The position numbers and the translations under genes were made by a program. A stretch of DNA of 43,857 nucleotides from an uncultured Ruminococcus sp. (GTDB taxonomy: Bacteria > Bacillota > Clostridia > RUG12999). Under the pieces are notes generated by a model. That model was not told the origin of the DNA. It saw nothing but the letters and a program-made list of their open reading frames with translations, and did not search any database. The stretch covers positions 1 through 43,857 of the forward strand of contig CACZWD010000013.1 of NCBI GenBank assembly GCA_902784805.1. The letters are read 5' to 3'. This document shows, in pieces, positions 27,559 through 41,684 of this stretch (within the stretch, counting starts at the first letter, position 1; each line of letters opens with the position of its first letter).

Positions 27559-27634
27559 GCTGGAGTGGCACAGTCGGTAGCGCAGCTGATTCGTAATCAG
27601 CAGGTCGTGGGTTCAAGTCCCATCTCCAGCTCCA
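27559..27634 (+). tRNA. tRNA-Thr (anticodon CGT)
   Basis: A 76-nt tRNA with encoded CCA. Acceptor stem GCTGGAG pairs with CTCCAGC; D-arm contains AGTCGGTAGCGC; anticodon stem GCTGA/TCAGC encloses loop TTCGTAA, giving anticodon CGT for codon ACG; T-arm has GGGTTCAAGTCCC. Own promoter upstream and a perfect terminator immediately after. Confidence 0.96.
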
Positions 27635-27666: not shown

Positions 27667-27845
27667 CAACGAAATACGCCTTGCGGCGTGTGAAATATTG
27701 CTACGCAATGTGAAATAGCTTCGCTGTGAAATATTTGCTTCGCAAATGTTAAAGGCGTATTTCATTTCACATCGAGCGGTAGCGAGATATTTCACAATTT
27801 ACGCAGTAAATTATTTCATATTTTGCGCAAGCAAAATATTTCACT
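27667..27845. repeat. Array of short hairpins separated by TGAAAT/ATTTCA
   Basis: About eight small perfect dyads in 180 bp: ACGCC-TTGC-GGCGT, ATTGC-TAC-GCAAT, AGC-TTC-GCT, ATTTGC-TTC-GCAAAT, TCG...CGA, AATTTAC-GCA-GTAAATT, ATTTTGC-GCAA-GCAAAAT. Each is joined by TGAAATA or its complement TATTTCA. GAAATACGCC (27671-27680) and GGCGTATTTC (27754-27763) also form a larger inverted pair. Stems differ in sequence while linkers are constant. No open frame. A family of extragenic palindromic repeats; function unknown. Confidence 0.8.
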
Positions 27846-39726: not shown

Positions 39727-39758
39727 ACATGCGAAGGCGCAAACGGAATATTTCTGGC

Positions 39759-39788
39759 GTAGGGGACGATGCTCGCATCGTCCCCTAC
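39759..39788. repeat. Perfect 30-bp extragenic palindrome
   Basis: GTAGGGGACGATGC followed by GCATCGTCCCCTAC around a two-base centre; a REP-like unit. Lies just left of the inverted-repeat RNA candidate. Ends with the same GTAGGGG/CCCCTAC termini as the units at 39971-40102. Confidence 0.8.
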
Positions 39789-39790
39789 GA

Positions 39791-39942
39791 GGCTGTAACA
39801 TCTAAAAGTTTGCATTAGTATCAAAGCATAAGCTGTGTAAACAAGGATGACGACGCAGGCGGGCCGGCGCCCGTCAAGAAGGAAGACGCTGCTTATGCAG
39901 CTTATACAAAGATAATAGTGTGAAGTTTTAGGTGTTACAGCC
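39791..39942 (+). ncRNA. Long inverted-repeat element, possible structured RNA
   Basis: Two 45-nt arms (39791-39835 starting GGCTGTAACATC, and 39898-39942 ending GTGTTACAGCC) pair along their whole length: about 35 Watson-Crick and 4 G-U pairs with six mismatches when read as + strand RNA. On the other strand the four G-U pairs would be A-C mismatches. The 62-nt apical part is GC-rich and folds again (GGGC-CGGC-GCCC with flanking GAC/GUC). No open frame and no similarity I recognise. Either a miniature transposable element or a structured noncoding RNA; I cannot name the class. Confidence 0.45.
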
Positions 39943-39970
39943 TACTACGCCCAAATTTTCTCATTGCCCC

Positions 39971-40102
39971 GTAGGGGCGGCAATCTGCCGCCCGAAAAAC
40001 GTTTGGTTTAACGGTATCGCCTCAATTCTTTACGGGCGGATAATATCCGCCCCTACACCTCACGCCTCGGTTTTCCGTAGGGGCGGACCTGTGTGTCCGC
40101 CC
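39971..40102. repeat. Cluster of three GTAGGGGCGG palindromes
   Basis: Units at 39971-39994 (GTAGGGGCGGCA...TGCCGCCC), 40031-40056 (GGGCGGATA-A-TATCCGCCC then CCTAC, reverse orientation) and 40077-40102 (GTAGGGGCGGAC...GTCCGCCC). All share GTAGGGGCGG at one end and a variable palindrome core. The unit after glnS (23853) belongs to the same family. Dispersed REP-like sequences. Confidence 0.8.
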
Positions 40103-40139
40103 GCCGTTATAATTAAATGTAAAATTCAAAATTAATTCT

Positions 40140-40961: not shown

Positions 40962-41684
40962 ATGAGAAAAACAATCAAAAGAAGCCTCAGCGTGCTTTTG
41001 GCGTGCTTAATGATAATGAGCATAGCATCAGTAGCTTTGGCGGACGGCACCGCTGCAATTGTGGTCGGCACAGCCACAGGTGAAGCCGGAGACAGCGTAG
41101 CGGTTGATGTTACCTTAACAGGTAGCGGAATCACAAACGGTGTATTTAAAGTTACATATAACACAAGTACACTGACATATGTAAGCGCATCATCATTGGT
41201 TGACGCAGAAGTTGCAGAAATTTCTGCCGGCACAATTTCTGTTGCGTTTGCAAAAACAACAGCCGTAACAGGCACAGTAGCAACACTTAACTTTACAATC
41301 AAGGACGGCGCTTCGGCAGGTAGCTACGACTTAACTCCGAGCTTTGCGGCAGCAGACGGTAACTATCATCTTGAAGCTGACGGTTTGTTCGCAGATGACA
41401 CCAGAGTAGCTGATGTTACACTTACAGCAGGTTCTGTAACGGTTGAAGAAGGCGAAACAGAAATAACTTACGGTGACCTCAATGATGATGGAGATGTAGA
41501 TACATCAGACGTTATAATATTACTTAGATACGTTGCTGAATGGGATGGCTACGATGAGGAAAATTATAACATAGATGCAGCGGATCTCAATGGCGATGAT
41601 GAAGTAGATACATCAGACGTTATAATATTACTTAGATACGTTGCTGAATGGGACGGCTATGAAGAGCTTCCGATATTAGATTAA
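40962..41684 (+). CDS. Secreted single-cohesin, single-dockerin adaptor
   Basis: A 240-aa exported protein. Signal peptide 1-27 (cleavage after SVALA). Residues about 30-160 are a cohesin: VGTATGEAGDSVAVDVTLTG, TNGVFKVTYNTSTLTYVSA, TVATLNFTIKDGASAGSYDL. Residues 171-233 are a type I-like dockerin with two EF-hand repeats: GDLNDDGDVDTSDVIILLRY (171-190) and ADLNGDDEVDTSDVIILLRY (207-226); calcium ligands N174, D176, D178, D183 and their partners are present. Both repeats end in VAEWDGY. A protein with one of each module can bridge a dockerin-bearing enzyme and a cohesin-bearing anchor, as small adaptor scaffoldins do in Ruminococcus. No enzyme domain or membrane/sortase anchor. AAGGAGGG precedes ATG. 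Confidence 0.85.
   Translation: MRKTIKRSLSVLLACLMIMSIASVALADGTAAIVVGTATGEAGDSVAVDVTLTGSGITNGVFKVTYNTSTLTYVSASSLVDAEVAEISAGTISVAFAKTTAVTGTVATLNFTIKDGASAGSYDLTPSFAAADGNYHLEADGLFADDTRVADVTLTAGSVTVEEGETEITYGDLNDDGDVDTSDVIILLRYVAEWDGYDEENYNIDAADLNGDDEVDTSDVIILLRYVAEWDGYEELPILD

Follow-up and report, generated by a model that had tools for sequence, protein, structure and literature searches.

The window analysed here, the whole stretch of 43,857 nt, belongs to a 1.67-Mb draft genome and carries on its + strand a tRNA gene (27559-27631) directly followed by a Gut-1 RNA (27667-27737; RF01706, 69.3 bits). At 40962-41684 lies a secreted-looking protein whose translation contains a repeated DTSDVIILLRYVAEWDGY motif resembling dockerin. 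The element studied here, a long hairpin whose parts are listed in Table 1, is surrounded by a nest of REP-like palindromes with arms GTAGGGGCGG or GTAGGGGACG (39758-39789, 39971-39998, 40029-40056 and about 40070-40105).

The arms of the hairpin, the first entry in the inverted-repeat listing of the window, span 39790-39843 and 39890-39943 (54 nt) and are 76% complementary. The fold reaches -69.2 kcal/mol on the + strand (z = -8.9), a stability equalled by 0 of 200 shuffles, and -56.0 kcal/mol on the − strand (z = -8.3), again with no equally stable shuffle. An earlier note on this DNA had proposed a long hairpin at 39791-39942 (152 nt); the hairpin is real, and its limits are corrected here to 39789-39944, with CTAC on both flanks. 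The left end reads GA where relatives read TA, and the right end reads TA. A chance palindrome, or a REP-like repeat without conserved content, might be suspected from the GTAGGGGCGG palindromes among which the element sits, but the fold z-score, together with the covariation and the distant homologues described below, reduces this reading to a negligible probability.

Table 1. Features of the element, and copies of the second MITE type of the same genome (window positions unless a locus is named).
Feature	Position	Strand	Evidence
Whole element, single-hairpin MITE, 156 bp	39789..39944	+ (motif strand)	Arms; fold; end-to-end alignment with other Bacillota elements; length class 156-160 bp including TA ends
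Left flank CTAC, probable target-site duplication	39785..39788		Direct repeat of 39945-39948; CTAG in the same place in relatives
Right flank CTAC, probable target-site duplication	39945..39948		Direct repeat of 39785-39788; CTAG in the same place in relatives
Left terminal inverted repeat GAGGCTGTAACATCTAAAA	39789..39807	+	Matches TACTCTGTAACACTTAAAA of relatives
Right terminal inverted repeat TTTTAGGTGTTACAGCCTA	39926..39944	+	Complement of left repeat; matches ..TTAGGTGTTACAGAGTA of relatives
Left arm of long stem, including one side of an AAA-containing internal loop (39823-39825)	39808..39835	+	Fold; parts of TATCAAAGCATAA..TTATGCAAAGATA kept in diverged copies C30 and G003:C34
Right arm of long stem	39898..39925	+	Fold; arm pairing
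Conserved core, G.A ladder and apical stem-loop	39836..39897	+	Covariance models R2 (74.2 bits) and R3 (65.8 bits), the core being a training sequence of both
First ladder strand AAGGATGACGACGCA	39843..39857	+	Antiparallel to 39876-39890; isolated Watson-Crick pairs covary
Apical stem-loop GGCGGGC-CGGC-GCCCGTC	39858..39875	+	Fold; covariation
Second ladder strand AAGAAGGAAGACGCT, direct-repeat partner of the first	39876..39890	+	Covariation
Copies of the 276-bp type	L206 577-852, L207 543-819, L209 633-908, L208 750-1014 (own genome C18, C8, C10, C4); C27:2048-2323

Copies, ends and mobility

One clear sister copy is present in the window's own genome (C30:23363-23477, 76% identical), directly after the stop codon of a 364-aa ORF resembling hemW, and a short derivative made of the outer palindrome alone is found at C25. 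In the genus-mate G003, the right half of the element lies at C54 (70 nt, 90% identity) and C34 holds a diverged copy; these sites, and that at C30, are unrelated to the one in the window. REP-like palindromes similar to those of the window nest also lie near the C54 half-copy. The sister copies are decayed, the differences between the window and C30 sequences in the alignment being nearly all transitions. The age of the window copy shows in its left end, which has drifted from TA to GA, and in the decay of its sole clear sister in the genome. Scanning genomes with a consensus pattern of the right arm gave four matches, with the genus-mate as the one known homologue among them.

Window-type relatives in other Bacillota families read CTAG-TACTCTGTAACACTTAAAAC...GGTGTTACAGAGTA-CTAG. 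The window element aligns end to end with elements of G158, G725, G731, G450, G575, G591, G638 and G690, and elements are multi-copy in G725, G591, G690, G340 and G293. With a covariance model built from the 4 first sequences, the apical architecture was found again in a second genus of the family. There, in G005 and G007, a ~290-bp MITE form occurs at unrelated sites, with compared copies mostly 93-97% identical and with two core hairpins in opposite orientation in each full copy. The window's genome also contains a second MITE type, 276 bp long, with ends TAGCCTGACGGCGCCAATTTGAAC and two inverted G.A-ladder hairpins. At L287-L290 (G340 C92, C11, C113 and C13), longer versions of 267-274 bp carry additional palindromes (GGGCCCCACAAAAACAAC... 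and another) as insertions within the ladder hairpin. Three species of a single genus have an element beside a 339-aa ORF (L239, L236 and L164; G153:C2, G340:C1 and G195:C23); this may be one old insertion that the three share, of use for dating and for substitution patterns. Several terminal-repeat types exist among these related MITEs, and over unrelated terminal repeats the element lengths fall into two narrow classes, 156-160 bp for one hairpin and 275-277 bp for two, TA ends included.

For the TACTAATCC type, an identical 3-bp TNA duplication is present at 32 of 41 distinct insertions, and all four middle bases are seen. The two-hairpin types have only TA at their ends, and many window-type relatives have CTAG on both sides. 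Note that CTAG is its own reverse complement, so that a duplication is indistinguishable from a terminal repeat in the CTAG type; the CTAC flanks of the window element form a direct repeat, which fits a duplication, at this one site. As to a short TA-centred target duplication, the observations are TNA in one related type and, for the window type, only CTAC/CTAC and the CTAG ends of its relatives. The 19-bp terminal inverted repeats lie within the 54-nt arms, and no transposase gene is contained in the 156 bp. Related genomes hold copies at unrelated sites, a related type shows target-site duplications, and element lengths are conserved; the window hairpin is hence a copy of a small mobile DNA element (MITE), and this half of the 'undescribed RNA or MITE' alternative put forward in the earlier note holds.

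The IS1031 group of IS5 targets TNA, which is similar to the TWA of PIF/Harbinger. We infer that the mobilising transposase is most likely of the IS5/PIF-like superfamily and that it would act in trans on the terminal repeats to move the element. Searches for an autonomous partner with matching ends found none, the window's own genome yielding only MITE copies of its other type; the window-type end, searched in seven genomes, returned short elements, derivatives and single ends and no autonomous transposon, and no IS5-type transposase lay between matching repeats in the genomes searched, whose coverage is limited. Neither the window element nor L300 had a BLAST match in phages or plasmids, and three exact patterns gave 0, 1 and 0 matches in viral contigs, the single match (L218) being accompanied by bacterial-looking genes and probably not viral.

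A conserved G.A ladder at the apex

The hairpin is capped by a conserved core that is invisible from the window sequence alone. This motif of 62-65 nt consists of single Watson-Crick pairs at every third position with tandem G.A mismatches between them, each ladder strand reading roughly AAG-GA-N-GA-N-GA-C-GCA and having as its antiparallel partner a second copy of the same pattern. Under plain MAFFT, 12 cores align nearly without gaps, with standard pairs in 12/12 sequences at all four isolated ladder positions: one is G-C throughout, and the others vary as U-A/A-U/C-G, C-G/G-C and C-G/A-U/G-C/U-G. Their covariation amounts to 0.613, against 0.237 when shuffled and at most 0.200 with partners slid. 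For 60 matches from many genera it reaches 0.763 (0.232 shuffled, at most 0.113 slid), in an alignment fitted to the structure, and we therefore retain 0.613 as the safer figure. The covariance models start from the predicted fold of the window, so that their matches are partly selected for pairing, a concern that is lessened, not removed, by copies found by BLAST, by second hairpins found in the flanks and by arms lying outside the models.

In a few members, such as L163, two G-C pairs take the place of a tandem G.A step, a change that pairing at the G.A positions would predict, and in L317 ordinary pairs stand in place of part of the ladder. The G.A pairs are probably sheared. A dimeric protein bound to double-stranded DNA would not be expected to preserve G.A mismatches; their conservation points to a single-strand fold. 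Two other readings of the core were rejected. Although one frame reads as an acidic peptide, protein coding is at odds with 1-base indels between close copies of the same MITE type (62 and 63 nt), which break the frame; in a classical kink-turn, by reasoning, the 3-nt loop side would be on the other side of the G.A pairs.

The earlier note had recognised no named RNA class, in line with Rfam 15, where the window element has no match, whether at gathering level or with E relaxed to 10, and the core matches no family, relaxed thresholds included. The motif was not found described in literature searches; an unnamed earlier listing is possible in candidate-RNA supplements (e.g. PMC8040213).

Folding strand, working form and gene context

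We compared wobble positions on the two strands over the arms of 36 non-redundant single-hairpin elements, using an arm alignment rule that scores G.U and A.C alike. The motif strand has 138 G.U against 46 A.C (p = 7e-12, in a binomial test that assumes independent positions, whereas related elements are not strictly independent), with more G.U in 31 elements and more A.C in 2; an earlier count from minimum-energy folds gave 83 G.U against 43 A.C. A strand bias in G-U pairs had been noted from the window alone, with counts of 4 and 1; the bias stands family-wide, and under the same rule the counts become 6 G.U and 2 A.C on the + strand of the window, which is weak taken singly. This excess of G.U on the motif strand indicates that the motif strand folds alone. 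Two marks of a structured RNA, covarying base pairs and strand-specific wobble pairs, are found together.

From these sequence patterns, the working form of the ladder is likely to be RNA, which is also a simpler reading of a strand-biased fold than single-stranded DNA. That the folded form is instead single-stranded DNA, the ladder being recognised when the strand is exposed in replication or transposition, would suit elements that are mobile DNA with random gene orientation, and the G.T mismatch is well tolerated in DNA too. However, TNA duplications point to a double-strand DDE transposase, with no single-strand step, and G.U exceeds A.C by 3 to 1, the usual mark of RNA; we thus regard the DNA form as rather unlikely. 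As to the alternative of an undescribed RNA or a MITE, both halves hold and the either/or does not: a conserved single-strand structure absent from Rfam is evident from covariation and G.U bias. Copies with target-site duplications and no covariation had been named as the outcome that would make the element a MITE; copies and duplications are seen, yet covariation is present.

Judged by open reading frames alone, the gene upstream of the element shares its strand in 30 of 59 single-hairpin copies and has the opposite strand in 29, i.e. the orientation to neighbouring genes is not fixed. Such random orientation speaks against a cis-acting role in host mRNAs, and we rejected host cis-regulation on this ground. 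In the window and at C30, the motif does lie on the sense strand just after a gene, as could be the case for a cis-acting RNA element of the adjoining genes (3'-UTR stabiliser, terminator or riboswitch), but the even split across the 59 copies, and arms that terminate in MITE terminal repeats, render such an element very improbable. In two T-box leaders, the match is interrupted by a ladder element (L310 1321-1642, 55.4 bits; L297 1281-1759, 47.2 bits; both below gathering), and at L307 a T-box lies beside one; ladder elements seem to be tolerated inside transcribed leaders.

Distribution, interpretation and known systems

The R2 search gave matches in 6 of 9 genomes of the order (E <= 0.01) and in 32 of 391 sampled genomes of the class, representing 20 of 222 genera (E <= 1e-4); the R3 search gave matches in 22 of 398 sampled genomes of the phylum, from 18 of 267 genera (E <= 1e-4), all E-values being based on a shortened calibration. 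The class and phylum lists overlap in the window's genus only, leading to about 37 genera, among which a few of the weakest matches may be chance; the weak matches L177 and L316 look so. Most inspected matches cap a long hairpin, and since the long outer arms are not part of the models, they provide an independent check on the matches.

L295 (G340 C45), L353 (G591) and L357 (G725) are short derivatives in which both ends are retained but the entire ladder core is gone, so the ladder is unnecessary for the persistence of an element. These derivatives, the decayed sister copies in the window's genome and the absence of an orientation preference would all be compatible with an ordinary decaying MITE, in which the ladder is a relic of an autonomous ancestor without present function. 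We consider this unlikely, as the ladder is common to MITEs with unrelated terminal repeats and different targets in about 37 genera, and its pairs covary among MITE copies.

We judge it quite probable that the element is a non-autonomous MITE moved in trans, whose interior is subject to selection for a fold of one strand only, a long hairpin with the G.A ladder at its tip, i.e. single Watson-Crick pairs every third position and tandem, probably sheared, G.A pairs below a stem-loop. The folded form would be the RNA produced when the element is transcribed, and a protein of the host or the transposon may use the ladder as a site of recognition or protection; on the motif strand, most likely as RNA, it would be recognised by a protein or would shield the hairpin. 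We give about even weight to the wider proposal that G.A-ladder hairpins form a new class of functional structured RNA, spread by MITEs of several terminal-repeat types across Bacillota, recognised by a protein through the tandem G.A pairs and selected for the life of the transposon and not for host genes.

MITEs are commonly regarded as hairpins whose form is set chiefly by their mobilising transposase. In the present elements, compensatory change preserves one particular non-Watson-Crick fold in MITEs with differing ends and targets, in many families of one phylum, which suggests a shared selective reason other than terminal-repeat recognition. A widespread structured element can thus be missing from Rfam.

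TA-centred targets are a signature of the IS5 superfamily and of PIF/Harbinger. The present elements may resemble the IS5 superfamily (IS1031, IS427 and IS5 groups) and the Tourist-like MITEs of PIF/Harbinger in this respect, with TNA duplications for the TACTAATCC type and TA and CTAG ends in other types. Like REP/REPIN sequences, moved by RAYT transposases, they are short extragenic palindromes spreading within a genome; unlike these short palindromes lacking target duplications, the element is 156 bp long, its terminal repeats are long and its internal core is conserved, and a related type shows target duplications. Drum, skipping-rope, raiA and HEARO are conserved bacterial RNA structures, as the core would likewise be, but the core matches none of the Rfam 15 families. 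Among structured bacterial MITEs, RUP and BOX of Streptococcus pneumoniae generate target duplications and pair their terminal repeats when folded (PMC3049150), and Correia elements of the Correia/NEMIS group in Neisseria bind RNase III (PMC2649163); reviews and studies of bacterial MITEs treat stable hairpin transcripts in general (PMC10969869, PMC3049150). The present element is similarly small, non-autonomous and bounded by terminal inverted repeats. It differs from RUP, BOX and Correia elements in its conserved non-Watson-Crick ladder, none being reported in the corresponding sections (PMC3049150, PMC2649163). Finally, while BOX, RUP and SPRITE are mostly restricted to S. pneumoniae and its close relatives (PMC3049150), the ladder motif spans many Bacillota families and several terminal-repeat types.
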